DNA of 33,360 bases, taken from IMG/VR virus record IMGVR_UViG_3300025088_000023, positions 1 to 33,360 of that record. The stretch is one strand, 5' to 3'. The DNA comes from a virus. The notes under the pieces are model-generated. The model had not been told where the DNA came from and ran no database searches. It saw only the letters and a list, made by a program, of their open reading frames with translations. This document shows, one piece after another, positions 2,393 to 17,088 of this stretch. Every line of letters starts with the position of its first letter. The stretch's first letter is position 1. The position numbers and the translations under genes are program-made.

Positions 2393-2404
2393 CTAACCTC
2401 CTTT

Positions 2405-2449: not shown

Positions 2450-2455
2450 TATAAT
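2426..2455 (+). promoter_or_regulatory. Early promoter of the lytic operon
   Basis: TTGACA (2426-2431) and TATAAT (2450-2455) are perfect sigma-70-type boxes with an 18-bp spacer that carries the operator AACATATTTGTT. Transcription would start near 2462 and run through the structured leader into the transposition genes. Confidence 0.85.
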
Positions 2456-2933: not shown

Positions 2934-2996
2934 TGCACTGCTAATCATTGCCACGCCTGCGTATATTGCGTAGGCTACATTGTTCTCTTTATCCAT
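2880..2996 (-). CDS. Possible small membrane protein, antisense to the early operon
   Basis: A 38-codon frame (MDKENNVAYAIYAGVAMISS and on to IHPYN) with a hydrophobic helix at about residues 8-25. A good ribosome site (AAAAGGA) precedes the ATG at 2996, and TATAAT on the same strand lies at about 3032-3037. It overlaps the end of the 2721-2933 gene on the opposite strand by 54 bp. Small single-helix proteins occur elsewhere in this prophage. Short length and overlap make it uncertain. Confidence 0.35.
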   Translation of the reverse strand: MDKENNVAYAIYAGVAMISSALIFSHDLINFIAIHPYN

Positions 2997-3000
2997 ACCT

Positions 3001-3046
3001 AAGTCCTTTTATTTTTAATGTTCCAACACCATTATAACAAGGACTT
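3001..3046. repeat. AAGTCCTT/AAGGACTT inverted repeat
   Basis: Eight-base arms at 3001-3008 and 3039-3046 flank a 30-nt AT-rich loop. It lies between the first and second early genes and overlaps the leader of the possible antisense gene. It may be a transcription control site. Confidence 0.45.
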
Positions 3047-3050
3047 CGGT

Positions 3051-3065
3051 GTGGGTATTACCCAC
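3051..3065. promoter_or_regulatory. GTGGGTATTACCCAC palindrome upstream of the second early gene
   Basis: Seven-base arms (GTGGGTA/TACCCAC) around a single T, centred about 37 bp before the ATG at 3095. The short loop suits a dimeric DNA-binding protein better than an RNA hairpin. A Ner-like or other early regulator could bind it. Confidence 0.5.
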
Positions 3066-3094
3066 GTTTACCCCATCTTTTTAAAGGAATCATT

Positions 3095-3466
3095 ATGGAT
3101 GCAATCGAACAAATGCAACTGATCATGGCTACGATCTCCGAAGCCAAAGCAAGCGGGAAAGAGATCACTATCGAGCAGGCTCAACGTAAACTGCATCGCG
3201 AGTACATCACGCGGCAGCTTTGGAACAAACACGGACTTCGACCGAAAGGGTTTCTCGTTATCAGCGGTTTTATCGATAACGAGGAAGAGGGATTTGTCTT
3301 ACCTGATCCGAAGATCGATACGATCTTTAACAGCTACCTGAACATGAGCAACAAACTCACCGGAGCGACTGGGCGAAAGCTCAGGGCGGCAATGGATGAT
3401 ATGGGCATCGATTATCAGAACTCACCGACCTACCCGCTCGACAATCTCGAAGAGAATGCGGCGTAG
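3095..3466 (+). CDS. Hypothetical early protein preceding the transposase
   Basis: A 123-aa soluble protein with no family recognised. A helical N-terminus (about residues 1-50, with the basic stretch REYITRQLWNKHGLRPKG) is followed by an acidic segment and a C-terminal helix. The ribosome site AAAGGA lies upstream, and the stop directly adjoins the possible GTG start of the transposase gene, so the two are translationally linked. Its position between regulator and MuA homologue suggests an accessory role in early regulation or transposition; this is inference from context only. Confidence 0.7.
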   Translation: MDAIEQMQLIMATISEAKASGKEITIEQAQRKLHREYITRQLWNKHGLRPKGFLVISGFIDNEEEGFVLPDPKIDTIFNSYLNMSNKLTGATGRKLRAAMDDMGIDYQNSPTYPLDNLEENAA

Positions 3467-3475
3467 GTGGCCGCC

Positions 3476-5650
3476 ATGAAATACTTGGAAACGAGGATAG
3501 CATCGGCTATTTATAAGATTGGTGAGAGAGGGTTAAGAGCTTCTATTGATCGCGGATCTATACAATACCAATCTATCACCATCAAAGGCAACGGTCGCGG
3601 CGGTAAGAAGTTGCTGATCGGGGTGAGTGATGATGCTCTGATGGAAGCGTTACGGAACGAGAGTGTTGATGAGAACATCGATTTGTATGACGATTGCGGG
3701 ATGTTGTGCTCTATGGAAGAGCGAAACACTCTCATTACAAAGGCAAAAGAGAAAAAAGAGGTAGTCGAAGCGGTGTTGATCGCTCCGGATATGAAGCCGT
3801 ATTTGAATGCGTCACCGGACCAGCGTACTAAAACGCTGTTAAGGATAGAGGTCGTCGAGGGGTACGAGCGAAGAGATCGTAGGATAAGTGCTAAGGAATA
3901 TATCGAAAGCCTCGATAATCGGTTTGAGTCCATCGGGGTAAATGAAGCGAAGCTGTTCCGGTGGAAAAAAGAGGTAGACGAAGCTCGAAAGAGTGGAGAG
4001 AGTCCACTTGTAGCCCTGCTCGATAGTCGCGGTCGTGCTAAAGGCTCAGTGAGTATGAATAAAAAGATGCAAGAGATGGCGGTGCGGATGTTCGCCCGTC
4101 GTGATAACCCGCTGAGAGTATCAGCTATCTATCAAAATATGCTCCTTGAGTACGGTGATGGCATGTGCAGCTATGACGTGCTCAATAACTTCTTGAACCA
4201 ATGGAAACGGCTTAATCATTCGCTCTATGCGTTTGCTCAGAGTGCGGATAAATGGAAAAACAGCTACTTACCCGCATTCGGAAGCCTCTCTGAAAAAGCT
4301 CTATTCCCAAATCACTATTGGGAACTGGATTCTACCCCTGCGGACATCATCTGTCGGGATGGGAAACGGTATGCCATCCTTGGGATGATCGACGTGTATT
4401 CGAGACGATGTGTGTTTTGGGTGGATGAGCGATCAAGCAGTTACAGCATCGCTCGGCTGCTTCGTAAAGCAATCCTACGGTTGGGAATACCTGAGAACGT
4501 AGTCGTGGATAACGGGAAAGATTATCAATCCAACCACTTCGACTCGATCTGCTACAACCTCGGTATCGCAAAGGTAACGGTTCCGCCGTTTAGCGGTGAT
4601 ATGAAGCCGCATATCGAACGGATGTTCGGGACACTGAGCCGTGAGCTATTCGAAGAGTTAGAGGGGTATATCGGTCACTCGGTGGCGGAGCGTTCCGCAA
4701 TCCAATCACGGAGAGGATTCGCTCACAAGATTGAGTCTCAAGCCAAATGGAGAGAGGAAGCACGAAAGGCAGAACAAAAAGAGTTTGAGAACCGATTCGC
4801 TATCAAAAAAAGCAATCTTGGATTAGAGCTCAAGCTTCCGATAGAGGCTGATCAGTTACAAAAGATTATTGATCAATGGTGCGACAACATCTATGAGCAC
4901 AAAGGTCATAGCGGTATTAAAGATAAAACACCTGTAGCGAAATGGCAAGAGCAGGCAATGCCTGTCAAGGGCATCAGCGATTCTAGGATGTTGGATCTTC
5001 TCCTCGGAGAGAGCTTTGAACGTAAGGTCGGGAAGAAAGGTATCAGACTCGATGGTGCGCTCTATCAACATGTGGCGTTAGCCGAACATGTCGGAGAGAT
5101 CGTTCGGATCATGACTCACTCCGACATGGGTTATGTGAGCGTGTACCGGATGAACTATGAGCCGATCTGCGTTGCTGAGGATTACGAGTACATGGGTAAA
5201 AGCCGTGCTGAACTCGCCGAAGGTAAACGGATCGGGCACCGAATCGCGAGAGAGTATGCGAAGTTGCTTGAAACTTGGGAAGAGACAAGCCGCCGACTTG
5301 ATCCAACGATCCGAGATCGTATCGAAGCATCGATGGAAGAGAGAAGCGGATGGAGTGGCGCGGCTACTATCGCCGTATCCAAAACAACCGAGACGATACG
5401 TGCAGTTAACGACGGGGTTAAAGCGTTTGCGAGAGCAGATGAAAGAGCCCTCGAAGAATCCAACATCATCAACATGGAAGGAGAAAAACTACTACCGAGC
5501 GGACGACCGGCATTTAATCAGCTGATAGACCGCTTCATGTGGGATTTAGAGCATGGCACGGTGGATGAGTCAACCGAGAAGCTCAAACAAAAACAACCTG
5601 ATCTGTGGGATATCGCATATCGGGAATATGAACGTAAAAAGATTGGATAG
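3476..5650 (+). CDS. MuA-type DDE transposase
   Basis: A transposase of about 724 aa, somewhat longer than MuA of Mu (663 aa). It would pair the two prophage ends, cut them and join them to target DNA, for both integration and replicative lytic growth. The catalytic triad is visible as Asp285 (ELDSTPAD), Asp345 (VVDNGKDY) and Glu381 (HIERMFG), a D-59-D-35-E layout. The N-terminal part carries DNA-binding regions, and the region after about residue 500 carries the Mu-type C-terminal barrel and a MuB-contact tail. ATG 3476 is preferred because AGGTGG lies just before it; GTG 3467, directly after the preceding stop, is the alternative. The MuB-type gene follows after 71 bp. Confidence 0.93.
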   Translation: MKYLETRIASAIYKIGERGLRASIDRGSIQYQSITIKGNGRGGKKLLIGVSDDALMEALRNESVDENIDLYDDCGMLCSMEERNTLITKAKEKKEVVEAVLIAPDMKPYLNASPDQRTKTLLRIEVVEGYERRDRRISAKEYIESLDNRFESIGVNEAKLFRWKKEVDEARKSGESPLVALLDSRGRAKGSVSMNKKMQEMAVRMFARRDNPLRVSAIYQNMLLEYGDGMCSYDVLNNFLNQWKRLNHSLYAFAQSADKWKNSYLPAFGSLSEKALFPNHYWELDSTPADIICRDGKRYAILGMIDVYSRRCVFWVDERSSSYSIARLLRKAILRLGIPENVVVDNGKDYQSNHFDSICYNLGIAKVTVPPFSGDMKPHIERMFGTLSRELFEELEGYIGHSVAERSAIQSRRGFAHKIESQAKWREEARKAEQKEFENRFAIKKSNLGLELKLPIEADQLQKIIDQWCDNIYEHKGHSGIKDKTPVAKWQEQAMPVKGISDSRMLDLLLGESFERKVGKKGIRLDGALYQHVALAEHVGEIVRIMTHSDMGYVSVYRMNYEPICVAEDYEYMGKSRAELAEGKRIGHRIAREYAKLLETWEETSRRLDPTIRDRIEASMEERSGWSGAATIAVSKTTETIRAVNDGVKAFARADERALEESNIINMEGEKLLPSGRPAFNQLIDRFMWDLEHGTVDESTEKLKQKQPDLWDIAYREYERKKIG

Positions 5651-5670
5651 CGGGGTGATTCGTCACTCCG
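5651..5670 (+). other. UUCG hairpin directly after the transposase stop
   Basis: CGGGGTGA pairs with TCACTCCG over eight base pairs (one G-T) with the loop TTCG. It begins at the base after the stop codon. No T-run follows, so it may set mRNA stability or partial readthrough between transposase and MuB rather than termination. Confidence 0.6.
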
Positions 5671-5721
5671 TGGTCGAGTCTTTGCTGGAACAAGGACTAC
5701 AAAAACACTCAGGGAGCAACC

Positions 5722-6444
5722 ATGATCGAAGAATTTATTGAAACACGAAATTATACCAACCTTTTGGCTGGTTTTTTAAATCTAAAGGCTTTGCCTACTA
5801 CAGCACCGCGTATGGGGCTAGGGTTTGGTAATTTCGGGTTAGGAAAAACGGTGGGATTGGAGCGGATCGCCGCGAAAGAAAACGCTATTTTGTTGAGAGC
5901 TGCTCAAACATGGAGCAAAACCAGTCTACTCATCAAACTATGTACCGAGCTTGGGCTTGATACCAAAGGGCACAGCTCACAGATGTATGAGCGCGTCAAA
6001 GAGTCATTCTTGATCGATCCTCGTATCGTGATCATCGACGAGGTGGATGCGCTGCTAAAAGCTGAAAAGACACCAGTGCTTGAACTGCTCCGCGATCTGC
6101 ACGACGAAACGCAGATCATCGTCTTTTTCATCGGTATGGAAGAGGCAAACGCCAAGTTTAAGCGGCATAACCACTACTACAGCCGGATTGTAGAACTGAT
6201 CAAGTTTGAAGCGATACCAAGAGCGGACGTTGAGAAGTTTTGTGCGCTCAGTAGCGTAAAGATTGAAGCGGATTTGATGGACTTATTTGTTCAGCGCTAT
6301 CCAAATCTACGACAAATTAAGGTGATGCTGCTCCGACTGGAGAACTGGTGCGATATGAATGGCATCGAAAGCGTCAACTTGAACACATTTAAAACGAGCG
6401 GGGTTGAACATGGGCTTGGCGTACAAACGAGTAAGGCGAAGTAA
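5722..6444 (+). CDS. MuB-type AAA+ ATPase, target DNA activator
   Basis: A 240-aa ATPase that in Mu binds DNA, selects the target and stimulates the transposase. The Walker A motif GFGNFGLGKT (residues 34-43) and Walker B IVIIDEVDA (102-110) are intact, and FFIGMEEAN fits sensor-1. The C-terminal part is basic and helical as in MuB. It is shorter than Mu's 312-aa MuB because it lacks the separate N-terminal helix-turn-helix domain, a form common in Mu-like phages outside enterobacteria. It follows the transposase gene and overlaps the next gene by 35 bp. Confidence 0.88.
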   Translation: MIEEFIETRNYTNLLAGFLNLKALPTTAPRMGLGFGNFGLGKTVGLERIAAKENAILLRAAQTWSKTSLLIKLCTELGLDTKGHSSQMYERVKESFLIDPRIVIIDEVDALLKAEKTPVLELLRDLHDETQIIVFFIGMEEANAKFKRHNHYYSRIVELIKFEAIPRADVEKFCALSSVKIEADLMDLFVQRYPNLRQIKVMLLRLENWCDMNGIESVNLNTFKTSGVEHGLGVQTSKAK

Positions 6445-6997
6445 AAAACAGCAGATTTGGGAGTTTATGCGGAGAAACCGACAGTTCAGAGCCGGAGATT
6501 TAATGATGATCTTGGATGTTTCCCAAGATTTTCTAATGCCTATCTTCCGAGCACTTGAACTATGCGGCTATCTCCAACTGAAAGCCGGAACCGATACATT
6601 TAAAGATCGTATGTATCGACTCAATAAAGATACCGGCATTCGATCACCGAGCGTCCTCAAAAAACCGTGCGATATTGTACGAGATATCAATACCAAAGAA
6701 GAGTTTATCCTCGATGGTACTCACCCCGTACAGATTACTGATCGCCTCACCCTCCTCTATGCTATGAAATACAAAGAGATGTTTCGTGAGCAGATTGCAG
6801 TAGTCGCCAATATCCACCTGTACTCGGCAAAGATGATCCGGTATATGGATGAGTTTACGGAATGCGGGATCATGGAGCGGCTTCCACGATCATCCAAGCG
6901 TCGTGATGATCGCAGAGTATTTAAAATCGACATGGAGAAACGCGATGACCTCATTAGAACGCTTGAAGAAAGCCTGCGACCTGCACGGTCAGCGTAA
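6410..6997 (+). CDS. Winged-helix DNA-binding protein (early)
   Basis: A 195-aa basic protein not assigned to a named family. The first half (about residues 10-65: KKQQIWEFMRRNRQFRAGDL then a recognition-like helix and RALELCGYLQLK) reads as a winged helix of the type that joins a phage ATPase or replication module. A second helical region (about 110-185) has the shape of another helix-turn-helix (EQIAVVANIHLYSAKMIRYM). The ATG at 6410 is chosen over an upstream TTG. The gene overlaps MuB at its start and the next gene at its end, so the three are translationally coupled. A role in early transcription or transposition is inferred. Confidence 0.65.
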   Translation: MGLAYKRVRRSKKQQIWEFMRRNRQFRAGDLMMILDVSQDFLMPIFRALELCGYLQLKAGTDTFKDRMYRLNKDTGIRSPSVLKKPCDIVRDINTKEEFILDGTHPVQITDRLTLLYAMKYKEMFREQIAVVANIHLYSAKMIRYMDEFTECGIMERLPRSSKRRDDRRVFKIDMEKRDDLIRTLEESLRPARSA

Positions 6998-7268
6998 AGC
7001 GGCTAAGGAAATCGGATACAGCGGAACGACTGTTAATCAGGTTCTAAACGGAACGTATCCAAAGCCTGATCCGATACTCAAAAAGGTTGATGTTGTATTT
7101 TCATATCTTAACAGCGATGAGACTTTATGCCCTACATTGGGAGTGATACATAACCAAACGTGTGAGCGGTACCGAGAGTGGGCAAAGGCAGAAAAGGTGC
7201 ATCCTGACCGACTGTATCGGGATGTTAAAGATAAGTGTGTGAACTGCACGATAGGAGGGAAACTATGA
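6945..7268 (+). CDS. HTH protein with Cys-rich C-terminus
   Basis: A 107-aa protein. Residues 1-40 form an XRE-like helix-turn-helix (AAKEIGYSGTTVNQVLNGTY). The C-terminal half has CPTLGVIHNQTC, then LYRDVKDKCVNC, giving two Cys pairs. This HTH-plus-CPxLGxI...C...C arrangement recurs in early regions of transposable phages and is usually annotated as a transcriptional regulator. The paired Cys may bind zinc. The ATG at 6945 is chosen because GGAG lies 7 nt before it; the longer frame from 6849 would run deep into the previous gene. It is the fourth gene of a tightly overlapping early set. Confidence 0.75.
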   Translation: MTSLERLKKACDLHGQRKAAKEIGYSGTTVNQVLNGTYPKPDPILKKVDVVFSYLNSDETLCPTLGVIHNQTCERYREWAKAEKVHPDRLYRDVKDKCVNCTIGGKL

Positions 7269-7384
7269 AACAAGTTTATGTTTGGGAAAAGAAAAAGGTG
7301 CATACCTATGCGTGGTTAATCGCTTTGATTATCGTGGCTTTAGGCGGAACGGTCATTGATTTAACGATGGGGGTAACGGGATGA
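7265..7384 (+). CDS. Small single-helix membrane protein
   Basis: A 39-aa frame starting MKQVYVWEKKKVHTYAWLIA with a hydrophobic helix at about residues 15-32. A perfect AGGAGG precedes the ATG at 7265. It overlaps the preceding gene by 4 bp and the next by 4 bp (ATGA), which strongly suggests it is real. Function unknown; a small membrane protein in an early operon may act on the host or on superinfecting phage, but nothing shows this. Confidence 0.65.
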   Translation: MKQVYVWEKKKVHTYAWLIALIIVALGGTVIDLTMGVTG

Positions 7385-7566
7385 GCCAAAATAAAAAAGG
7401 TATCAAAGAGAAACAATGGGTCAGAGTAGGACTTTTTCGAGGGATCGTTACTCGGATTCGTATTTTTAAGGGTGAAGTTTGGATCGACGTTGAGATAGAC
7501 GGAGCGGTAGAACCGTATAAAATCGATGATGTTGAACCGGAGCAAAGCGATGAAAGCGGTCGATGA
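7381..7566 (+). CDS. Hypothetical small early protein
   Basis: A 61-aa protein starting MSQNKKGIKEKQWVRVGLFR. The pattern of short beta strands with alternating hydrophobic residues (GIVTRIRIFKGEVWIDVEID) suggests a small SH3/OB-like barrel; no family is recognised. Start and stop overlap both neighbours. Confidence 0.6.
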   Translation: MSQNKKGIKEKQWVRVGLFRGIVTRIRIFKGEVWIDVEIDGAVEPYKIDDVEPEQSDESGR

Positions 7567-7783
7567 GTTTGTATCGCATGATGAAATAATCGAGCGAATC
7601 AAAGACATTGTAAGTCGGAACAATGGGGGGGGTAGAGTATTCGATGCCGACATAGAAGGAATACTAAAACTTCCTGTAAATTATCTTGGAACCGTAAAGG
7701 CGAGAGAGTCTAAAACACTTTATATAGATGTGTTAAGACTTTGTGCACGTACTGGGCTTGATCCGATGAAGTTGTTGTTTTGA
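7550..7783 (+). CDS. Small CI-like HTH protein
   Basis: A 77-aa protein beginning MKAVDEFVSHDEIIERIKDI. The sequence DADIEGILKLPVNYLGTVKA followed by YIDVLRLCARTGLDPMKLLF has the layout of the N-terminal domain of phage CI repressors (PF07022 type): a helix-turn-helix, then a helix ending in an L-L pair. No peptidase part is present, so it is an HTH-only protein. The ATG at 7550 is chosen because GGAG lies 7 nt upstream; the frame extends back to 7526. It could regulate early or middle genes. Confidence 0.6.
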   Translation: MKAVDEFVSHDEIIERIKDIVSRNNGGGRVFDADIEGILKLPVNYLGTVKARESKTLYIDVLRLCARTGLDPMKLLF

Positions 7784-7794
7784 GTGTTTCTCAA

Positions 7795-7812
7795 GATCGC
7801 CGACGGGCGGTC
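7795..7812 (+). other. Hairpin in the spacer before gam
   Basis: GATCGCC pairs with GGCGGTC (one T-G) around GACG. A second small hairpin, GGAG-TT-CTCC, follows a few bases later. No T-run is present, so a processing or stabilising element is more likely than a terminator. Confidence 0.45.
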
Positions 7813-7922
7813 TGAAGGAGTTCTCCAAAACAATTAGGTGGTTCACTATGGGACTCAGGATAAAGAAGCCGATCAAGATTGCGGTAGCTACGCAATACGG
7901 GTATGTATATTGGGAGAAAATG

Positions 7923-8435
7923 ATGGCAAAAGAAAAACGCAGTAAACCGGTAGTGGAGACTCGAAAAATAACGTCTCTATCCGAAGCAGACAGTATATTG
8001 CATGAGATGGCGGATTTGAAAGCGAAGATCCGAAAGGTTCAAGCCGATGCCGATATCGCTGTCAATGCGATTAAAGAGTCGATGATGGATACGGTGCGTC
8101 CGATGCTGGAGCAGATCGAAGCAATGGAAAAATCACTGGCCGTTTACAGCGAGTACAACCGTACCGAGCTGTTCAGCGACAAAAAGACGATCGAGCTTCA
8201 GTTCGGACTCTTCGGGTATCGTCAGAGTACAAGCGTTTCGGTCAAGAAAACAACGCTTGAGCTGCTTCAAAAACATGGGTTCGATGAAGCGATATCGATT
8301 AAACCAACCGTCAATAAAGAGATCATGCGAAGCTGGAGCGTTGAGCGTTTGGCTCTCGTCGATGCGACACTGGTCATCGAAGATAAATTTTGGATCGAGA
8401 CGAAAGAGAACGATCTCGAAGGAAGTGCGGCATGA
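7923..8435 (+). CDS. gam: Gam-type host-nuclease inhibitor
   Basis: A 170-aa homologue of Mu Gam, which binds the ends of linear double-stranded DNA as a Ku-like dimer and shields them from exonucleases. The N-terminal helical region (about residues 20-80) and the C-terminal beta/alpha part with a conserved NKE motif (KPTVNKEIMRSW) match the family, and the length matches Mu's 174 aa. The ATG at 7923 (MAKEKRSKPVV) is chosen because GGGAG lies 6 nt upstream and Mu Gam also begins MAK. An in-frame ATG at 7848 with AGGTGG would add 25 residues. The stop overlaps the next start. Confidence 0.85.
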   Translation: MAKEKRSKPVVETRKITSLSEADSILHEMADLKAKIRKVQADADIAVNAIKESMMDTVRPMLEQIEAMEKSLAVYSEYNRTELFSDKKTIELQFGLFGYRQSTSVSVKKTTLELLQKHGFDEAISIKPTVNKEIMRSWSVERLALVDATLVIEDKFWIETKENDLEGSAA

Positions 8436-8677
8436 GTGCCGGTCCTGATTTTGCCCCAATCATCCGAAAGGTTGCTTTTGGCGGTGTGATGTACTCAAAC
8501 AAGAGATATAAACATGAAGCATTAGAGCCGTATGAAGGTCAAAATGTACTCTTAGACATGGAAGTAGATGTGCGAACCGAGACGCAAAGCTTTCGTATCT
8601 ATGATACAGATGAAAACGAAATCTGCCTGATAGAGCCAGATGAAATCAAATCTATCGGAGAGGTATCCCATGCCTAG
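8432..8677 (+). CDS. Small protein resembling a Mu transposase C-terminal barrel
   Basis: An 81-aa protein. The stretch VMYSNKRYKHEALEPYEGQN, then RIYDTDENEICLIEPDE, resembles the small beta-barrel that follows the catalytic core of Mu-type transposases (PF09299-like: a Y-S...L.PY.G..V segment followed by V-YD-DG). Here it is a separate protein made from a gene overlapping gam, with AAGGA upstream. It could compete with or assist the transposase, or be an unrelated barrel. This assignment rests on pattern recognition only. Confidence 0.5.
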   Translation: MSAGPDFAPIIRKVAFGGVMYSNKRYKHEALEPYEGQNVLLDMEVDVRTETQSFRIYDTDENEICLIEPDEIKSIGEVSHA

Positions 8678-9194
8678 CGCAAACTTTATGACAACCATAT
8701 CCGGCAAGCGGATCAACTATGAGAACCCGACGGTGGAGATGTTCGATATTACCGACATCGCTCACTCCCTTTCAAACCTATGCCGCTTCGGAGGGCATAT
8801 CAATCGCTTCTACAGTGTCGCACAGCACAGCGTGATGGTGTCCAATCTTGTACCTCATCATTTGGCGTTGGCGGCATTGCTGCATGATGCCAGCGAAGCG
8901 TATCTGAGCGACATCGTCCGACCTGCTAAACGTATGCTGCCACAGTACAAAGATTTGGAGTTGAAGTTTCAGGGTGTGATCGAACAACGGTTCGCCGTGA
9001 CATTCGATCATGAAGAGATCCACATCGCTGATAACAAGGCTCTCTACGCTGAGGCATTTCATTTCTATGGTGACATCGATGATTGGGGACTGGATGGGTT
9101 TGAGCATTACGCGACCATCACACCTCTTCATGCAGAGCACGCGAGACTGATGTTTATGTGTCGGTTTAGTGAGCTGACGGTTGGCGGTGGGTGA
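8670..9194 (+). CDS. HD-domain phosphohydrolase (YfbR-like)
   Basis: A 174-aa metal-dependent phosphohydrolase. The HD motif residues are His53 (VAQHSVMV), His72-Asp73 (LLHDASEAYLSD) and Asp121 (HIADNKAL). The segment NLCRFGGHINRFYSVAQHS is typical of the phage and YfbR-type group, whose members act on deoxynucleoside monophosphates. This suggests a role in nucleotide pools during replication. The start at 8670 is set by GGAGAGG, and the gene slightly overlaps its upstream neighbour. Mu lacks this gene, so it is an accessory of this phage type. Confidence 0.85.
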   Translation: MPSANFMTTISGKRINYENPTVEMFDITDIAHSLSNLCRFGGHINRFYSVAQHSVMVSNLVPHHLALAALLHDASEAYLSDIVRPAKRMLPQYKDLELKFQGVIEQRFAVTFDHEEIHIADNKALYAEAFHFYGDIDDWGLDGFEHYATITPLHAEHARLMFMCRFSELTVGGG

Positions 9195-9376
9195 TGATTA
9201 GATATTCAGCATGCGGTTCAACAGTAGGTGAATTAATTGAGCAATTAAAACTAGCAGATCAAAATGCAATTGTAAAAATTTATGATCCTGATGCAGACGG
9301 TATTTACCCAGTAACGGGGTTCACTTATGACAAGGAAGAAGTGAAACTTTATTGCGACAGTGATGATGAAGACTGA
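9194..9376 (+). CDS. Hypothetical small acidic protein
   Basis: A 60-aa acidic protein (MIRYSACGSTVGELIEQLKL and on to CDSDDED). It starts on an ATG that overlaps the HD-protein stop (TGATG). An N-terminal TVGELIEQLKLADQNAIVKI segment resembles small phage proteins of unknown role that begin with a helix and a strand. No function is assigned. Confidence 0.6.
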   Translation: MIRYSACGSTVGELIEQLKLADQNAIVKIYDPDADGIYPVTGFTYDKEEVKLYCDSDDED

Positions 9377-9396
9377 ACAATGACGTAGATTTAACA

Positions 9397-9416
9397 GCCT
9401 CCATAGTAATGGGGGC
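9397..9416 (+). other. Hairpin before the RepA-like gene
   Basis: GCCTCCAT pairs with ATGGGGGC over eight base pairs (one T-G) around AGTA. It ends 41 bp before the ATG at 9458. It is not followed by a T-run. Confidence 0.45.
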
Positions 9417-9430
9417 GATTGAGTCAACTT

Positions 9431-9446
9431 GCATTTTAAATTCAAA
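9431..9446 (+). repeat. GCATTTTAAATTCAAA motif, copy 3
   Basis: Exactly equal to 722-737. It lies directly before the ribosome site (AAAGG) of the RepA-like gene. It could be a regulatory site or a module junction. Confidence 0.55.
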
Positions 9447-9457
9447 AGGTAAAAAAA

Positions 9458-10360
9458 ATGAATCCATTTCGCGGTCAAGGACTAAAGTCCGAACATTTTA
9501 ATCATGAAGTTAACTATATCATCGATAACTTCTTGGTCGAGCAAGCGATCACGATCTACTTTGCCCCACCTAAACAGGGGAAGAGTCGATACAGTCTCGG
9601 ATTGACGAAGTACCTTTATGAAAATACTGACAAGATTATTCAGTATTTCGACTTTGACAATCCGCTTTCCGCTCTAAAAGAGCGCGGAGCTTCAAAGATC
9701 ATCGAGGAGTTGTGTGATCGGCTCGACTATGTTCACCCTGAAACGGCCGCTATGACTTCGCATGAGGTTTTAAAGCTTCTCGTTGAGGGTGCGATAGGAG
9801 ATGCTTATCGGGATTACATCTTCTTCTTCGACTCAATCACCGACTTCGTACGTGACGTACAGAATGAAGCGATGGCTAAAAGCTTTATGAACGCGATGAA
9901 GCGATTACGCAATGCCGGAGCGACTGTAATCCTACTGCATCACACGAACAAGAACGAGAAGAACTATCAGGGAGCCGGAGTATTTAAGTCGGCGGCTGAC
10001 AATGTGTACTTTATGCGTCAAGGTAACGGCACTGTAGAGTACGATCTCTTCTTACTCGATGTCGAAGCGGGACGATTCCATGTCGAGAACTCAGCGTTCT
10101 ATCTCGATAAAAAAACCTATGACCTCAGCATCGTAGCGTATGAGCAAGCAATGATCCGCCCTGAAGAACAATCGTTCATCGACTCGATCAAAGAGGTGAT
10201 CAAAAAGAATCCTGACGGTATCGGTCAGAGCCAACTCCTCGCCGAGATCGGAAAAGCCAAAGACGACAAACTCGCTCGAACTAATCTCGCTAAATATACG
10301 GGGCGTTTTTGGGAAGTCAAAGACGGCAAAGGCAAGTTAAAACTCTACTTTCTCCTATAG
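9458..10360 (+). CDS. RepA/AAA_25-like RecA-fold ATPase
   Basis: A 300-aa ATPase of the RepA/KaiC-related group that includes plasmid replicative helicases. Walker A is APPKQGKS (residues 36-43), Walker B is IFFFDS (121-126), and VILLHHTNK (157-165) matches the sensor motif usual in the AAA_25 family. Residues from about 236 to 300 form a winged-helix-like DNA-binding tail. The gene is followed within 5 bp by a symmetric cluster of CCAC boxes, a likely binding target. Mu uses host replication after transposition and has no such gene, so this enzyme may help load replication machinery or process forks. A helicase role is inferred. Confidence 0.75.
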   Translation: MNPFRGQGLKSEHFNHEVNYIIDNFLVEQAITIYFAPPKQGKSRYSLGLTKYLYENTDKIIQYFDFDNPLSALKERGASKIIEELCDRLDYVHPETAAMTSHEVLKLLVEGAIGDAYRDYIFFFDSITDFVRDVQNEAMAKSFMNAMKRLRNAGATVILLHHTNKNEKNYQGAGVFKSAADNVYFMRQGNGTVEYDLFLLDVEAGRFHVENSAFYLDKKTYDLSIVAYEQAMIRPEEQSFIDSIKEVIKKNPDGIGQSQLLAEIGKAKDDKLARTNLAKYTGRFWEVKDGKGKLKLYFLL

Positions 10361-10362
10361 CC

Positions 10363-10464
10363 TACCACACGAACCACACAACCACAACCACTTACAAAAC
10401 CCCATAAATAGCCATTTTATCAACCATATAGTTGTGGTAAGTGGTTGAGTGGTTTAAGTGGTAG
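10363..10464. repeat. Symmetric CCAC-box dyad after the ATPase gene
   Basis: Four CCAC boxes at 10365, 10374, 10382 and 10388 face four inverted copies (GTGG) at 10434, 10441, 10449 and 10458. Steps are 9, 8 and 6 bp on the left and 7, 8 and 9 bp on the right, so the arrangement is nearly mirror-symmetric. The outer 23 bp of the two arms match with four mismatches. An AT-rich middle (about 10397-10430) separates them. This could be an iteron-type replication or loading site for the adjacent ATPase, or an operator or RNA structure. Confidence 0.7.
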
Positions 10465-10489
10465 AAGATCACAAAATAAGGACTTTGAC

Positions 10490-10894
10490 ATGACCCAAAG
10501 ACAAAAGATCGTACATGCAGCACTAATCAAGCAGGTGCATACATCGATACGGTATCAGAACTATTATCGTAATGAGAGAGAGGATTACGTCGAGATGCTC
10601 GAAGCCTCTTTCGGTAAAAACTCATCGGTTGCGCTGAGTGTGTCTGAACTGATCATACTCGTTGATTATCTGAATATGAAGCGTCATGAGCTGCCGACAT
10701 TCACCCCGAAGCAATCAACTCCGGCACAGGTATGGAAGATCATGCAGATATGGGAAACCAAAGCACGAGACAAGAGCGACACGGCGTTGCTGTCGTTTTG
10801 TAAACGGATCATTAAAAAAGAGTATGAAACACCAAATCAGATGGAATTCAATGAGGCACAGAAGGTGATAGTCGCTTTGGAGAAGATGAAATGA
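10490..10894 (+). CDS. GemA-like regulatory protein (Mu gp16 family, DUF1018)
   Basis: A 134-aa protein. The N-terminal TQRQKIVHAALIKQVHTSIR and the segment YVEMLEASFGKNSSVALSVS fit the GemA/DUF1018 pattern (helical bundle with Y..ML....G..S...L). In Mu, GemA affects host gene expression and DNA supercoiling and sits just before mor, as it does here. The start at 10490 is chosen because AAGGA lies upstream; the longer frame from 10445 would translate the CCAC-box dyad. Confidence 0.8.
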   Translation: MTQRQKIVHAALIKQVHTSIRYQNYYRNEREDYVEMLEASFGKNSSVALSVSELIILVDYLNMKRHELPTFTPKQSTPAQVWKIMQIWETKARDKSDTALLSFCKRIIKKEYETPNQMEFNEAQKVIVALEKMK

Positions 10895-10973
10895 AGGTAA
10901 CGCCCCTCGAAAGAGAGACGTGTAATTGGGTCTGGACAACCGAATTATACATCAATAATCAGAGGGGATTGCA

Positions 10974-11240
10974 ATGGCTATCACAAATAAAGATATTTTT
11001 GAAGAGTTTTGCCGTAAAATCCGAGAGGACAACGCGACTGATGAAGAACTCATGCAAGAGTATGGCGGAATGCCTATCTATGTCCCTTCATGGTGTATGA
11101 ACGGGAGAAACGACGAAATTATCAAAGACTACACCGAAGAAAAACTGCAGCCAAAAGAACTGGCTATGAAGTACCGGCTCAGTCTCAGCCGAATATATGA
11201 GATCATCGATACGGTACGGAACCCTCAACTACTCTCCTAA
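10974..11240 (+). CDS. Mor/C-type transcription activator
   Basis: An 88-aa protein with the hallmarks of the Mor family. GGMPIYVPSWCMNGRNDEII gives the dimerisation part with a conserved GG-x-IYVP strand, and ELAMKYRLSLSRIYEIIDTV is the C-terminal helix-turn-helix. In Mu, Mor activates the middle promoter and its relative C activates late promoters. Only one such gene is seen here, so it may itself drive the late operons, probably from the divergent region near 19.85-20.02 kb. It ends the early operon and overlaps the end of the convergent head operon by 12 bp. Confidence 0.85.
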   Translation: MAITNKDIFEEFCRKIREDNATDEELMQEYGGMPIYVPSWCMNGRNDEIIKDYTEEKLQPKELAMKYRLSLSRIYEIIDTVRNPQLLS

Positions 11241-11705
11241 ATACCCCAATAAAATATCCAACACTTCAACATTAACATTGTCATATAACTCACCATCCTG
11301 CGTGATCGGCATAAACGGTCGCGCTTCAATCTTCCCGTCTTCAGTCCCGAACTGGTGAACGATAGGATAGGGATAACGATCTTTACTGTACGCGTTTACC
11401 CCTACGATCACACTCGTATCATCGGCACTGTATCCGGTACTCTCACGAAGATTACGATCACCGCTTTGCAGTATTTTGCTTCCTCCGTGCTTCTCTTTGT
11501 ATGCCTTTGTCGAATCGGCGATGGGATGCCATGCGTGACCGTCGGGTGATGTCTCGCTGTCGAAGCTCTCTTCCATGATATTCGTGAGATAGGAACCCAC
11601 TGCACTGAAAGGCTTTTGAAGGTTTTGCATTTTATGCAGCAGATCCGCAATCGCATGATCTACCTGATCCGCTCCGGTGACTTGAATATTTATCATCTCC
11701 GACAT
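11229..11705 (-). CDS. Virion morphogenesis protein (Mu gpG family)
   Basis: A 158-aa protein of the phage virion morphogenesis family (PF05069). It shows the typical path MINIQVTGADQVDHAI..., FDSETSPDGHAWHPI and the late VHQFGTEDGKIEARPFMPIT. The family is linked to head completion or tail joining. The ATG at 11705 is chosen because AAAGGAG precedes it; a longer frame to 11780 has no such site. It is the last gene of the minus-strand head operon, following the gpF gene. Confidence 0.88.
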   Translation of the reverse strand: MSEMINIQVTGADQVDHAIADLLHKMQNLQKPFSAVGSYLTNIMEESFDSETSPDGHAWHPIADSTKAYKEKHGGSKILQSGDRNLRESTGYSADDTSVIVGVNAYSKDRYPYPIVHQFGTEDGKIEARPFMPITQDGELYDNVNVEVLDILLGYLGE

Positions 11706-11795
11706 TAGGGCTCCTTTGTGGTATAATTTTTTATTCAATCGAAAAGATACGCCGCATGGAATGAGCAATGAGCACTCCATCGTGTAAAGATGCGG

Positions 11796-12959
11796 TTAAC
11801 GGGTGCCTTCTTTTCGATAGATCAACTTCTCATATCTCTTTTTCTCCACAGTCGATGCACTGTCAATCAAATACAAGCTAACTCCCTGAGTCTTATCGCT
11901 CTGATATTCAAACACTGCCATAAGTGCCTTTTTCTTCCCTTTTTCATCCGTAAAATATCGGAACATCTTTTTAACTAAACGCCCCGCTTTAGCATCCCAC
12001 TCCAAATAAATCTCATCGGGACCACTGATCGTATTGGCAAACTCATCGATGAAGAGGTGCCGGTCTTTTTTAGTGATCTTCGAGTGTCCGCTAAAAGAGT
12101 GAAAGAGACTATCATCGATCACGGTCGGATCACCAACGGCATCGATATGCGTTCCACCCGGCTTGATCTTCAGATCATCATAAAACTTTTGCTTGAGGGC
12201 ATTATCACTGAGCTCTTTATATTCTCGTTTTGGGAGTATCGTCGGAAGTGTGAGGAGGCTTTTATCAAGATCGATCTTCGAGAGCTTCCCGACACGATTA
12301 CCGGCTCCCGGATTGTATGACCACTCAGGAGAGGCGATGTTCTCATGAGTAGCAGTCGATACGCTCCACCCGCGTCGTTTGATCTGTGCTTCGCTCCATG
12401 CTCTGACCTCACAATGACATAGCCATGCATTCGGTGGATAGTTATATGCCCACCACGGATCAGTTTTAGGGAGTACAATGCCGTTTTTCGCCTTGTGGCT
12501 CATACGCGGATGTTCGGAGAGCCCACCGATATATTGGAGATACGGAAGATCACTCGCCATCTGCTGATCGTACCGCGCGGTGGAGCGGGCGACCATCGTG
12601 TTGGTTTTGAAGATCGTTTTGAGTCGGCGACCGCCGATTACGATCTCTTTGACCTCTCCGGTAGAAGGGTTTACGATCTCTTTTTTACCCCACCATCCTT
12701 TCGCCTCAAGCGTTGGAATGATCTGTTTTTTCCAATCCTCGAAGCGTGTGCCGTTCGACATCGCTTCAGTGATAGAGCCGTGAATGTCGCTGAGCAGATC
12801 CGCGCGGGTTACTTTGGCAACGGTGAACGCTTTATGGTGAGCTTCTCGCTGCATCTCTTTGTAATCAAAAGTGAGCTTGTAGCCTTTGGATCGGAGGTAC
12901 TCTATCGCTGCAGTGGGTTTAAGTCCAAAGGCAAACGACGGCTTAGGGAGCGGAGGCAT
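11796..12959 (-). CDS. Head morphogenesis protein (Mu gpF) with C-terminal extension
   Basis: A 387-aa protein. Residues 1 to about 230 are the Mu gpF/SPP1 gp7 minor head domain, with the signature MVARSTARYDQQMASDLPYL and the late NAWLCHCEVRAWSEAQIKRR. After a linker, residues of about 265-387 form an extra domain (FHSFSGHSKITKKDRHLFID through ISGPDEIYLE and MAVFEYQSDKTQGVSLYLID). This resembles the phage nuclease-like PBECR domains (barnase/EndoU/ColicinE5/RelE fold) often fused to gpF-type proteins. Such a domain would be carried in the capsid and might enter the next host with the DNA. The toxin-like assignment is tentative. Confidence 0.85.
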   Translation of the reverse strand: MPPLPKPSFAFGLKPTAAIEYLRSKGYKLTFDYKEMQREAHHKAFTVAKVTRADLLSDIHGSITEAMSNGTRFEDWKKQIIPTLEAKGWWGKKEIVNPSTGEVKEIVIGGRRLKTIFKTNTMVARSTARYDQQMASDLPYLQYIGGLSEHPRMSHKAKNGIVLPKTDPWWAYNYPPNAWLCHCEVRAWSEAQIKRRGWSVSTATHENIASPEWSYNPGAGNRVGKLSKIDLDKSLLTLPTILPKREYKELSDNALKQKFYDDLKIKPGGTHIDAVGDPTVIDDSLFHSFSGHSKITKKDRHLFIDEFANTISGPDEIYLEWDAKAGRLVKKMFRYFTDEKGKKKALMAVFEYQSDKTQGVSLYLIDSASTVEKKRYEKLIYRKEGTR

Positions 12960-12961
12960 TA

Positions 12962-14362
12962 TTAATCCTCTTCGCTCTCACGCTCTACTTCAGCGGTACC
13001 GAGAATATAAGAGCTTTGCAACGCCATATCCATCGTGTCTTGTAGCTCTGCGATATCCATCCCCGGATAAGCTGCGTGTAAAAGATCAATCGCCTCTTCG
13101 AAACTGTTTGCCTGATCGATTATTTCTACGATTTGAGTTTGAAATGATAGTGCTATCTTGTGGATATCGACACTGTCGCTCAATTCATCAGTCGTTGTGA
13201 TTGGCTTTGTTGCGCTTAGAGCATAGAGCTTTTGCATCAGTGCGCGGTTCGCTATTTTGGAGGGTTCGATAGCTTCAACGGTGATGTTGTAGGTCTTCTC
13301 GATGTACTCCTGTGTTGGACGGTACCCCATTTTAGTGATCCGCTCGTCCCGTTCTGCGAGAGAGAGGTTCGGATCATCTTTATCTTTTAGGGTCACTTCA
13401 ATCGTGATACTGAGATTGTTGATCGCAATAAATGCTTCAATTACCCGTTCGATCAATACGATAGTCATGTTCTCATCTGCCATCGCTATATCTTCTCGGA
13501 TGTCATTATGGGTCTCTGCAGCCGCGTAGCTCCCCCCTTTGACGTTCCCGGTTAGATTGCCTCCGAGGATTGCTTCTCGAATCTGATCATCGAGGTAGGC
13601 GGTAATCTTGTCAAAGTCACCCGTTTTATCAGCGGTGATGATTTCGATACTATCTTCGGTATCAAGAACTGCCGCATCTCCGGAGAGCATGGAATAGATC
13701 TCATCCGCCATAGTGTCTTTATCTCCGTCTGTTTTGCCGATAGCCCACGGTACCCCGTATTTTTCGAGAAACTTAACCCAAAACTGCAACGAAGCGTTTT
13801 TAAACTTCACGTACCAAAACAGTGACTCAGCAAGCGGTGTCCCCATCGGGCGGTGGTACTTATCTTCATAGAGAGCATAGACCGCTTTGTGTTCCGGTAT
13901 CTCTTCAAGTGAACCATACGGTGCGAAGTAGAGAATCTCATTCTTGATCACAAACTGCGTGTAATCACGCTCGATGAGCTTGGGTACCAATACAGCGTCC
14001 TGATCACTCCAGTTGATCTCAAAGATAGCCGCACCCTGAAACGGAGCATCAAGAACTTTACGAAGTGTTCCGGGATGAAATACGCCATAGAGTTTATTCG
14101 CGATGTCTTCATTATCACTGGTAAAGATGATCTCTTTTTTGAGGGTTGCCGCTTTGCGACTTCCCAATGATGAAATGACCGTAGCATCTCTGCTGATGCG
14201 GTCAAGCTCATCACGGCTCATCCATTCATTTTGTATCGGTAGATTGTCCATCATGCTTCGCAGAATATCAACCGCCGGAGCTGCTGCAGCTGAACGTGAT
14301 TTAGAAGCCGAGGCAGTGGTTTGTTTGGCAGCAAATAGATTTTTAAATGATGGAAATTTCAT
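12962..14362 (-). CDS. Portal protein (DUF935, Mu gp29)
   Basis: A 466-aa portal of the DUF935 family. The N-terminal LRSMMDNLPIQNEWMSRDEL, the central FEINWSDQDAVLVPKLIERD and EKYGVPWAIGKTDGDKD are typical of Mu gp29. The portal forms the dodecameric ring through which the terminase packages DNA. The ATG at 14362 overlaps the terminase stop by one base (TAATG), with GGAGAGGATA upstream, and the gpF gene follows after 2 bp. Length is usual for the family. Confidence 0.9.
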   Translation of the reverse strand: MKFPSFKNLFAAKQTTASASKSRSAAAAPAVDILRSMMDNLPIQNEWMSRDELDRISRDATVISSLGSRKAATLKKEIIFTSDNEDIANKLYGVFHPGTLRKVLDAPFQGAAIFEINWSDQDAVLVPKLIERDYTQFVIKNEILYFAPYGSLEEIPEHKAVYALYEDKYHRPMGTPLAESLFWYVKFKNASLQFWVKFLEKYGVPWAIGKTDGDKDTMADEIYSMLSGDAAVLDTEDSIEIITADKTGDFDKITAYLDDQIREAILGGNLTGNVKGGSYAAAETHNDIREDIAMADENMTIVLIERVIEAFIAINNLSITIEVTLKDKDDPNLSLAERDERITKMGYRPTQEYIEKTYNITVEAIEPSKIANRALMQKLYALSATKPITTTDELSDSVDIHKIALSFQTQIVEIIDQANSFEEAIDLLHAAYPGMDIAELQDTMDMALQSSYILGTAEVERESEED

Positions 14363-16089
14363 TATCCTCTCCTATGTGAATTTCGGGGTCGAACGGATCG
14401 TCGGTTACTACGGGGGGCAGATACATGCTGTTTCTTGGCGAGCTTGCTGAGGCGATAGGCTCCCGCTAATCCGTCCGGGGCATCATCGTTTTTACCTTCA
14501 GGATGATCCTCAAGCTGCTCGATGAGAATAATTTGATCTTCATGGAGTAGAACTTCTCCGTTTTCAATAGGAAGCTCCAGCTCTTCAATACGGGAATCTT
14601 TGTTATCGCTATTGTGTATCCCCTTGAGCGGCATGTGTACACCGCGCTCAAATGCCTCTCTTAAGATAAAAGGCTTGAGGTGGAACTGTCCTCCATTCGT
14701 CTCTACACCAAAGACCTTGCACCCATAACGTTCTTGCAACGTTACTACCCGCTTGATAATTTCAATTGATCCAATCACTTCATTGATCGATTCGAGGACG
14801 TACCCCTTGAGGGCTTTATCATCAACTCCAAAAATCGTAAAGTTTGTAAAGTCGCTCTTTTTTCCGCTTCCTGCCGGATCACACCATCCGTAAATAGTAA
14901 GCTGCTTGAGCGGCGGATAAGAGCGCCAAAAGTGCATTGATTCACGCTTGAAGTTTTGGGTGTCTAAACTTGGGTTATTTTGGAGTTCTTTAGCAAATGA
15001 GCGAGGCGCCTCGGCTCGTTTACGCATGAGTGTTTCGATGGGAACGGCATCCGGCCATAAAACGCGAGACCCTGCATCCATCTCCGGCTTTTGGCTCATA
15101 TAAAAATCGTGTGCCTCTTGTGTACCGCGTGATTTGTAGATTTGAGCATACCGTTCCCATAGATCAAGACGATCCGGGAAGGTGATGATTGCTCGGAAGA
15201 TCTTCGGGTTCCAAAACCCAAGCTTTAATTTACGAGCGAGTACTGAATCGCGGTGTAAGATGGTTCCGATGTAGATGATGTCCATATTGCCATCCACAGA
15301 ACCGAGGTTAACTACGGCTTCATCTATCCATGCTTCCAGTTTATCACGCTGATCACGGCTGCGGACATTTTCGTCGTTCTCAAGATCATCGATAATGACA
15401 AGGTCTACGCGATATACTCCGTGTTTAATACCACGGACACGCTTACCGGAACCAAATCCTTTTACCCGGATACCGTTACGTGTAACGATATCTCCGATCT
15501 TCCATACTTTTCCGATTCCGGTTGCATGTGGAAAGTCGGCTTTGAGGTTATCGTTCTCTGAGAGTTCGGCTTTGATCGATTCGATTAGAGTCTCGGTTAG
15601 CTCTATCGCATCGGAGAAGATGGTGATGAAGTGCTTGAGGTCATTGACGATACACCATATCACGAACGCTACCGATACGTCGGTGGACTTACCGTGACCG
15701 CGCGGCGCGGCGATGGCAAACTTGTAACCCATCGCTGAAGCGGCGCTATTGCTCGTAGAGCATCGATCCGCTATACGATGATAGACACCCTCAAGATGCT
15801 CTTGAAGATCCGACTTGCCCGAAAGATAATAGTAATGCGGGAAGTAAGTTGTTCGGAAAAAATGGAAGTCATGGCGTTGACGATCTCTACGTTCGTCTCC
15901 CTGCTCTGGAGGAAGTGTGGCATTGGATCGGATCGTCTCTTTTAGATCACTCGTATAATCGCCGATCCATTTGATGTATTCACGGCGGGTGAGCCGCTCT
16001 GCCATGTGTTCACTATTGCCATCGGCTAACAGATCGGCTTTAGTATCGATTAGGAGACGACGGAGTTCTTCTTTGTCAAATAGCGACAT
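14362..16089 (-). CDS. Terminase large subunit (Mu gp28-like)
   Basis: A packaging motor and nuclease of about 575 aa. Walker A is APRGHGKST (about residues 128-136), Walker B VDLVIIDDLE (about 228-237), and the C-terminal nuclease begins with IYGWCDPAGSGKKSDFTNFT (catalytic Asp). The C-terminus ends in a basic, arginine-rich tail. The second ATG, at 16089, is preferred because AGGGG sits at the right distance; the first, at 16098, is only three residues longer. The gene overlaps the small-terminase gene, and the portal gene follows directly. Mu-type terminases package by headful from the left end, which fits the terminal structure of the prophage. Confidence 0.92.
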   Translation of the reverse strand: MSLFDKEELRRLLIDTKADLLADGNSEHMAERLTRREYIKWIGDYTSDLKETIRSNATLPPEQGDERRDRQRHDFHFFRTTYFPHYYYLSGKSDLQEHLEGVYHRIADRCSTSNSAASAMGYKFAIAAPRGHGKSTDVSVAFVIWCIVNDLKHFITIFSDAIELTETLIESIKAELSENDNLKADFPHATGIGKVWKIGDIVTRNGIRVKGFGSGKRVRGIKHGVYRVDLVIIDDLENDENVRSRDQRDKLEAWIDEAVVNLGSVDGNMDIIYIGTILHRDSVLARKLKLGFWNPKIFRAIITFPDRLDLWERYAQIYKSRGTQEAHDFYMSQKPEMDAGSRVLWPDAVPIETLMRKRAEAPRSFAKELQNNPSLDTQNFKRESMHFWRSYPPLKQLTIYGWCDPAGSGKKSDFTNFTIFGVDDKALKGYVLESINEVIGSIEIIKRVVTLQERYGCKVFGVETNGGQFHLKPFILREAFERGVHMPLKGIHNSDNKDSRIEELELPIENGEVLLHEDQIILIEQLEDHPEGKNDDAPDGLAGAYRLSKLAKKQHVSAPRSNRRSVRPRNSHRRG

Positions 16090-16564
16090 CGAGTCCATCC
16101 CCTATTCGTTCAACGACCTCGATAAACCGTTCCAACATCACTTTGTCACCAAAGGCTTTTAGCTCTTCGGCAATCGCATGGATGACGTGCTTGATGATTC
16201 CGTGTTTATAGGCTATCGGGTCTTCATGACGGACGATACCGCGCATTTTGGAAAAGGCATCGGCGAGCTTTACGATCTTATCCGCTTTGTCCTCAGCCGG
16301 CATTTTAGAATCGCGCACCTCTTTGAGGGTATCATGCATATATCCGACGAAGTCACTATAGAGATGCTCACGGCGAGGAGAGTCTGCGGCGATATGCTTC
16401 TCGGCTCTGAGTACGTCCCAATCATACCCTGCTGCTGCGTCGGCTGATTTGTAGTTTTGGATGGTGCGTTTGCTCGATTCGAGGATAGCGGCGATCTCTT
16501 CTTCGTTTTTGCCTACGAGGTATAGAGCTCGTGCTATCTCGATCTTTTGTTCTCGCGTTGCCAT
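16076..16564 (-). CDS. Terminase small subunit (DUF1804)
   Basis: A 162-aa protein of the DUF1804 type found before the Mu-like large terminase (Mu gp27 position). The N-terminal helix-turn-helix (EIARALYLVGKNEEEIAAIL then SKRTIQNYK) would recognise the packaging site near the left end. The C-terminal helical half likely drives oligomer formation. The ATG overlaps the stop of the Gp36 gene (ATGA), and the 3' end overlaps the large terminase. Confidence 0.85.
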   Translation of the reverse strand: MATREQKIEIARALYLVGKNEEEIAAILESSKRTIQNYKSADAAAGYDWDVLRAEKHIAADSPRREHLYSDFVGYMHDTLKEVRDSKMPAEDKADKIVKLADAFSKMRGIVRHEDPIAYKHGIIKHVIHAIAEELKAFGDKVMLERFIEVVERIGDGLDVAI

Positions 16565-16947
16565 CAGTTAAATCCTCTGAAATTGATCGGTCGGGTGCCG
16601 TGTCGGAATGCGCTTGAGGTACCTTTGGGCTTTTGCGGTTGGCTCATCGTTGTCGGGATCGTCCCTTTGCCCATTTTCGTCAGAGCCGATTCGATCTCTT
16701 TGCGATCTTTCGGATCGTGGAGGTCGTGGAGCTTTCTGAGTTCATAGATAGCGAGATCGACGGCGATGGTTTTTAGGTATGGTGTTGGGTTTGAGGGAAT
16801 GACTAGAAATGAAGAGATAAAGGCTATCGCATCATTGATGGCTTCACCCACTACTGCGGTATCAATCTCTCCCGTACCGTTGAGATCGCTCATCTGAGTC
16901 AGCTCTGTAGTACTGAGTTCTTTTTCTAAGTCTTCGATACTAATCAT
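16564..16947 (-). CDS. Gp36 family protein (DUF1320)
   Basis: A 127-aa protein of the Mu gp36/DUF1320 family, a small head-tail connector. ISIEDLEKELSTTELTQMSD, the segment VVGEAINDAIAFISSFLV and the motif AVDLAIYELRKLHD match the family's helical N-terminus. AGAGAGG precedes the ATG at 16947. It follows the capsid gene across a 141-bp spacer with inverted repeats and overlaps the small terminase. Confidence 0.85.
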   Translation of the reverse strand: MISIEDLEKELSTTELTQMSDLNGTGEIDTAVVGEAINDAIAFISSFLVIPSNPTPYLKTIAVDLAIYELRKLHDLHDPKDRKEIESALTKMGKGTIPTTMSQPQKPKGTSSAFRHGTRPINFRGFN

Positions 16948-17088
16948 ACAACCCTCTCTAGTAGTGTTTAATAGGTGTTTAAAATCGCGTAGAAACGATT
17001 TAAACCTTTTCGGCGATAAATGACGCTGATTAAGACTTAAATCGTTTTTAGGGCTATTTATGAGGCTATCCCCAAAAGGGGAAAGCGA
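16948..17088 (-). promoter_or_regulatory. Spacer with inverted repeats after the capsid gene
   Basis: On the minus-strand transcript, TCCCC-TTTT-GGGGA (17069-17082) forms a small hairpin just after the capsid stop. A larger dyad, AAACGATTTAA (16993-17003) and TTAAATCGTTT (17037-17047), follows. Without a clear T-run these may attenuate rather than end transcription, which would keep capsid mRNA more abundant than the downstream connector and terminase genes. Confidence 0.5.

Follow-up and report, generated by a model that had tools for sequence, protein, structure and literature searches.

Introduction

The SCCmec protein Cch2 and the SaPI Rep proteins, which are helicases of Staphylococcus islands, are the closest described counterparts of the locus studied here. 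The C-terminal domain of Cch2 was shown in binding tests to recognize 5-nt iterons (AAGTG); these belong to a region of direct repeats, 23 bp long, that immediately follows the gene, and the SaPI Rep helicases likewise have their origins just behind rep (PMC7581432). A step of 9 bp would accommodate three such iterons in the 23 bp (5+4+5+4+5). In the case of RSF1010, the iterons are read by RepC; to our knowledge, its ATPase RepA lacks a winged helix and takes no part in iteron recognition.

The classic example of replication by transposition, without a dedicated origin, is provided by Mu-type phages. We know of no ATPase and no array in phage Mu of the kind described below. The accessible parts of the accounts of the Campylobacterota Mu-like phages CMLP1 and AMLP1 describe no origin (PMC2147049, PMC3519530). 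Our literature search found nothing on an origin in transposable phages, and the paper on a Leptospira transposable prophage mentions neither RepA nor a helicase nor an origin of replication.

Here, we describe an ATPase gene and an adjoining box array in a transposable phage. The locus resembles those of Cch2 and SaPI Rep in that a helicase-type ATPase with a predicted C-terminal DNA-binding domain, here of the winged-helix type, is encoded directly upstream of short iterons. In contrast to these D5/MCM-like helicases of Staphylococcus islands, the ATPase has a RecA-type core without a D5 domain and resides in a transposable phage; moreover, its array, known from sequence alone, is usually a mirrored pair of arms.

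Results

The analysed stretch of DNA, hereafter the window, comprises all 33,360 nucleotides of the IMG/VR record IMGVR_UViG_3300025088_000023 and holds a genuine Mu-type transposing prophage. We mapped the ends of this 32,740-bp element (342..33081), which are of the TG...CA type, by comparison with a related prophage in Sulfuricurvum (L007), to which similarity ends sharply at positions 342 and 33081. The prophage is flanked by 5-bp target duplications AATAT (337-341 and 33082-33086), and the junctions read AATAT/TGTGAGG on the left and GTTGTACA/AATAT on the right. The Sulfuricurvum copy lies at another site with another duplication, CAAGA (junctions CAAGA/TGTGAGG and TTGTACA/CAAGA). Such ends, combined with 5-bp target duplications at differing sites, are the hallmark of Mu-type transposition. 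On the + strand, we identified genes for a MuA-type transposase (3467..5650; Pfam, PHROGs and the catalytic DDE residues D288-D348-E384), a MuB-type target-binding ATPase (5722..6444; TniB, AAA_22, phrog_296), a Mu Gam-like end-protection protein (7848..8435; Pfam, 5.2e-31), a GemA-like protein encoded next in the early operon after the array (10490..10894; Pfam GemA, 2.1e-12) and a Mor/late-activator-like protein (10974..11240; phrog_532, 9.9e-9). MuA, MuB, Gam, GemA and Mor follow the same order in Mu and in CMLP1 and AMLP1 (PMC2147049, PMC3519530). The phage had been called transposing in an earlier note on this DNA, and the ends, the AATAT duplication, the intact DDE transposase and the MuB, Gam, GemA and Mor-like genes all bear this out. 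No primase was detected with Pfam and PHROGs profiles among the window proteins examined, which represent part of the ORFs, and the GC skew, inspected for a signal of bidirectional replication, showed no turn separable from gene orientation.

Several other elements were observed in the window. Close to the left phage end, AAAGGAACA motifs recur (648-716) and may be an operator or a transposase-binding region, and direct and inverted TTACTATCATTT repeats at the right end (32979-33065) are probable MuA binding sites. A deoxyribonucleoside 5'-monophosphate phosphatase-like gene (phrog_318) is located in the early operon shortly before the ATPase gene (8640-9194), and a DNA methyltransferase gene lies near the right phage end (31442-32242). 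A host tRNA-Leu (CAA) is found close to the right insertion junction (33235-33318); it was ruled out as an attachment site, since the related prophage sits elsewhere in its host.

The ATPase gene (9458..10360, + strand) encodes a 300-aa protein with a RecA-fold motor. We found a Walker A motif (APPKQGKS, residues 36-43), a Walker B motif (FFFDS, ending at residue 126) and an HHTNK motif. The protein matched phrog_6357, a family listed as of unknown function, with an E value of 5e-60, and Pfam AAA_25 above the cut-off of that family (3e-7), which relates it distantly to AAA_25/RepA proteins. A match to AAA_24 (Sak4) remained below the cut-off (14 bits versus 27; E value, 0.045), and Pfam gave no match in the ATPase to the Rep_3 initiator domain or to the D5 family, the fold being of the RecA type instead. 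In profile searches of the Protein Data Bank, the highest-ranking matches, to fused RecA chains, were discarded as an artefact of summed repeats, and the best match outside such fused tandem chains was RSF1010 RepA (1g8y; E value, 2e-4), with which the ATPase shares, besides this distant similarity, the RecA-type fold and the Walker A and B motifs. The invariant residue after strand 2 is an aspartate (D67), and its putative equivalence to the catalytic glutamate of RepA was judged by eye. RSF1010 RepA was absent among the 50 structural matches listed, which we did not count as evidence. Of the RepA/AAA_25-type assignment made in the earlier note, the AAA_25 class holds, whereas membership in the RSF1010 RepA family is indicated only by a distant profile match.

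The full-length AlphaFold model of the ATPase, built from 44 sequences (mean pLDDT, 91.9), predicts a RecA-type motor (residues 1 to ~230) followed by a winged helix (residues 235-299; 10160..10354, + strand), which is the presumed reader of the boxes. Modelled alone, the winged helix adopted the same H-H-H-E-E fold (mean pLDDT, 87.0); Foldseek searches with this domain alone returned weak and generic matches, mostly to winged-helix proteins, none with an E value below 0.001. The winged-helix tail that had been proposed for the protein is supported by this model. Structural neighbours of the ATPase included the RadA helicase (Z score, 18.0), fused RecA chains, the DnaB-type G40P motor (Z score, 17.3) and DnaB, and the best matches among viral models were replicative helicases and the helicase part of primase-polymerase-helicase fusions.

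Directly 3' of the ATPase stop codon (10360), we observed eight ACCAC boxes, four per strand, at 10364, 10373, 10381 and 10387 on the + strand and at 10434, 10441, 10449 and 10458 on the - strand. The steps between boxes, counted from the outside inwards, are 9, 8 and 6 on the left and 9, 8 and 7 on the right. The left arm (10362..10395, + strand) and the right arm (10431..10464, - strand) are supported by inverted-repeat and box searches, shuffles and box-column conservation; they enclose a core that is AT-rich by base composition (10396..10430) and that varies in length in relatives, where it is sometimes almost nil. The arms form a 24-nt inverted repeat with 83% identity (10362-10385/10441-10464) and contain a second, perfect one of 11 nt (10385-10395/10437-10447). 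The array reached a mirror score of 8, compared to a maximum of 5 when the 129-nt intergenic stretch was shuffled 5,000 times with its dinucleotides preserved, and none of the shuffled sequences contained eight boxes. The runner-up mirror cluster within the window also scored 5. Since ACCAC is not enriched across the whole window (37 found versus 38 expected), the signal lies in clustering and orientation. Neither a sigma-70-like promoter nor a terminator-like site was matched inside the array of the window. The eight boxes, their near mirror symmetry beside the ATPase gene and the AT-rich core had all been pointed out before and are confirmed here, the shuffles never coming near; the box itself, previously read as CCAC, is real as a cluster but is better given as ACCAC and is specific to the lineage.

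We then compared relatives of the ATPase drawn from IMG/VR, GTDB genomes and annotated phages. Annotated phages contributed only two relatives, and the one plasmid record with a match holds an inserted Mu-like phage. Mirrored arrays were found behind homologous ATPase genes, with a box sequence that differs by lineage: ACCAC in the window and in L002, L003, L004, L007 and L074, AACAC(T) in L005 and L006, CAACA in L042, ACGAC in L073 and ACAAC in many relatives. In most of these array-bearing relatives, the best mirror cluster of the fetched locus lies directly behind the ATPase gene. With a strict detector, 20 of 55 non-redundant ATPase genes proved to be followed by a mirror array, compared to mirror arrays in 6 of 1,630 control stretches from the same loci. 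At least three direct boxes were present behind 12 of the 55 genes, a less specific class (83 control matches). Over the 55 loci, 74 of 100 box-to-box steps measured 9 bp. The detector needs two G/C per box, so that AT-rich boxes would escape it, and it misses arrays that are visible by eye in L069, L070, L096 and L108. Among six close relatives, 35 of 40 box columns were invariant, as opposed to 26 of 65 remaining array columns.

The arrangement varies among relatives. Helicobacter-type and some other relatives carry just two or three boxes in direct orientation at the 3' end of the gene and in this respect resemble the Cch2 site. In L108 and L123, the array is located ~0.6 kb from the ATPase gene, beside gemA, and in L110 and L136 the core between the arms is nearly absent, indicating that a long AT-rich melting element is not obligatory. 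These four loci carry near-perfect palindromes of six TACAACNNN 9-mers with almost no core. No array was visible behind the ATPase gene in relatives of the Campylobacter jejuni/coli type or in L055, L077, L093, L094 and L097, the detector being blind to AT-rich boxes. In Campylobacter phage CAM-P21 (L009, 8558-8665), TGTTAAA/TTTAACA boxes lie upstream of the ATPase gene and may be an AT-rich counterpart of the array. Conservation of the box pattern beside homologues had been named as a check of the initial proposal; the mirror array is indeed kept behind ATPase genes even though the box sequence changes. What is conserved is thus the architecture and not the sequence of the box.

The association between array and gene was also approached from the DNA side, using a pattern blind to genes (ACAACNNNNACAAC, 2-32 nt, mirror image). 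Applied to 397 Campylobacterota genomes, this pattern retrieved five distinct arrays, all of them ~10 bp behind a gene of the ATPase family. One of these, the L189 array in genome G396, has only the 3' part of the ATPase gene left beside it, which indicates a prophage in decay. In IMG/VR, 40 stretches matched, of which about 21 adjoin the ATPase family; for two of these, the assignment relied on the parent contig or on a cut-off gene. Mu-like phages whose MuA/MuB are only distantly related (L150, L151, L162, L167 and L168) are among them. Three further arrays adjoin the 3' end of genes for other replication proteins, namely, a Toprim-AAA_25 protein (L139) and DUF3987 proteins (L149 and L154). 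The remaining matches include four copies of one operator-like element, and others fall in repetitive coding sequence. The operator-like element, a mirrored AACAAC/GTTGTT in related phages without the ATPase (L138, L157, L158 and L176), looks like a repressor operator.

Exchange of the gene was observed between two close relatives. L075 and L006 share 95% identity in MuA, 99% in the preceding gene, 82% in GemA and 93% in the Mor-like gene; their ATPases, in contrast, are only 34% identical. Directly behind its foreign ATPase gene, L075 carries another array type, GCATCACC/GCACCACC, and an ACCAC-type array persists further on, before gemA. The retained array is not of the AACAC type seen in L006 and hence descends from an earlier state. 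Taken together, linkage and joint exchange are strong evidence that the array belongs to the ATPase gene. The presence of two different tandem arrays in L075 (8331-8570), and also in L073 and L119, appears to be a relic of the exchange of ATPase-plus-array cassettes and is useful for dating it.

Scans of the whole collection with ACCAC- and AACAC-type patterns yielded mostly repetitive coding sequence and were useful only for L204 and L220. In L204 (842-905), an ACCAC mirror array with 9-bp steps lies just behind an ORF of unknown family. In L220 (IMG/VR; 1795-1841), an AACAC mirror array with 9-bp steps is located ~20 bp downstream of the stop codon of a helicase gene; the helicase is of the D5/DUF5906 type, and its C-terminal domain is of the RFX/Pox_D5 type. 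The arrays behind the Toprim-AAA_25 and DUF3987 proteins of L139, L149 and L154 consist of ACAAC boxes and lie in stretches without MuA/MuB matches. With the phage Toprim-AAA_25, primase-polymerase and DUF3987 proteins, the ATPase of the window shares the ATPase class (in the case of the AAA_25 proteins), the closest predicted viral structures and arrays in these three loci; it differs in consisting of a motor and a predicted winged helix alone, whereas those proteins carry primase or other domains. The layout thus seems common to unrelated motors.

Discussion

The likeliest reading of these observations, and one we consider probable, is that the transposable phage encodes a self-recognizing helicase-initiator and carries the origin on which it acts. 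The ATPase would be a ring-forming, helicase-type motor of the RecA fold that recognizes its own origin, its C-terminal winged helix reading the 5-bp box and the 9-bp spacing positioning successive subunits. Binding of the ATPase to the boxes is very likely, and the array is probably an origin. The two mirrored arms might further assemble two oppositely facing rings around the core, a geometry to which we give about even chances; ATP-driven remodelling would then open the DNA between the arms, and the rings would become, or load, the helicases of two forks. The earlier note had likewise proposed an initiator/helicase with an iteron-type site. The anatomy supports this proposal well, as the array is kept behind homologues and travels with the gene, but relatives of the Campylobacter jejuni/coli type, L055 and L077 lack a visible array.

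Other readings of the array were weighed against an origin. The boxes could be an autoregulatory or operon operator, bound by the ATPase or another early protein to regulate transcription that starts in, or runs through, the gap upstream of gemA/mor. Indeed, winged helices are common repressor folds, the array occupies the early-operon gap just before gemA in most Campylobacterota phages, and the displaced arrays of L108 and L123 stay beside gemA. However, arrays also follow the ATPase gene where gemA is not next (L162 and L168; the next gene in L150 is unidentified), which weakens the case for a gemA/mor operator, and in L075 the replaced ATPase is directly followed by a new array type while another array was left before gemA. 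Together with the lack of a sigma-70-like promoter match within the array, this makes an operator possible but unlikely. Alternatively, the ATPase could dock on the array to serve MuA/MuB forks, e.g., as a helicase pool on phage DNA or by shaping the transpososome. Such a loading or accessory site for transposition, which the earlier note had offered as a second option, suits a phage that transposes and whose ATPase is encoded in the early region together with MuA, MuB and Gam. As is generally known, however, Mu forks start at the phage ends and not at an internal site; moreover, arrays of this layout are also found behind phage primase-helicases and a D5 helicase where the locus has no MuA/MuB match. 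A fixed site that is swapped with its gene is less well explained in this way than by an origin, and we regard helicase loading for transposition as improbable.

We also considered that the inverted repeat might act in the early transcript, as an RNA hairpin or a bidirectional terminator/attenuator. The arms are indeed inverted repeats, and a small G+C stem is present within the core of some relatives, e.g., L005 and L042. However, several relatives have direct repeats only, and in ACAAC arrays the complementarity of spacers between arms (0.50) hardly exceeded that between different loci (0.45). The conservation of box columns but not of spacers points to a protein site rather than a hairpin, and the joint change of all boxes of an array between lineages, which a hairpin would not need, suits a repeated protein site. 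Since the spacers do not pair beyond background and the array of the window contains no terminator-like site, a hairpin or terminator was rejected as the main explanation and is very unlikely. Least credible is the notion that the ATPase is a recombinase of the Sak4/RadA type and that the boxes are an unrelated site for a host protein. The best structural matches do include RadA, RecA and RAD51, and there is the very weak AAA_24 (Sak4) match (E value, 0.045), but the genome-wide coupling of array and gene, their joint exchange, the predicted C-terminal winged helix and the viral structure matches, which are to primase-helicases, all speak against it.

On the reading as a helicase-initiator with its own origin, the phage would own a conventional origin besides replicative transposition. 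Such an origin may serve to amplify phage DNA in place, to maintain an episome before or between transpositions or to provide forks where host restart suits Mu poorly. The ATPase family is functionally undescribed in the literature and databases that we searched; the kind of system, a helicase-initiator with downstream iterons, is known and is found here with another motor and in a host where it was not expected. The family phrog_6357, so far listed without a function, thereby gains a concrete hypothesis. The natural series of matched protein/box pairs (ACCAC, AACAC, CAACA, ACGAC and ACAAC) offers material for reading the specificity of the winged helix. That AAA_25, DUF3987 and D5 proteins are all followed by arrays of matching layout suggests convergence on one origin design, for which raw DNA can be scanned. 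We give about even odds to the wider proposition that, in one branch of transposable phages, a self-recognizing RecA-fold helicase-initiator and a mirrored 9-bp iteron origin provide a second and conventional mode of replication, and that the same design, with the site behind its own gene, is common to the unrelated RecA-fold AAA_25, DUF3987 and D5 cores. If true, the conserved initiator-and-origin cassette would mean that some Mu-type phages have two modes of replication.
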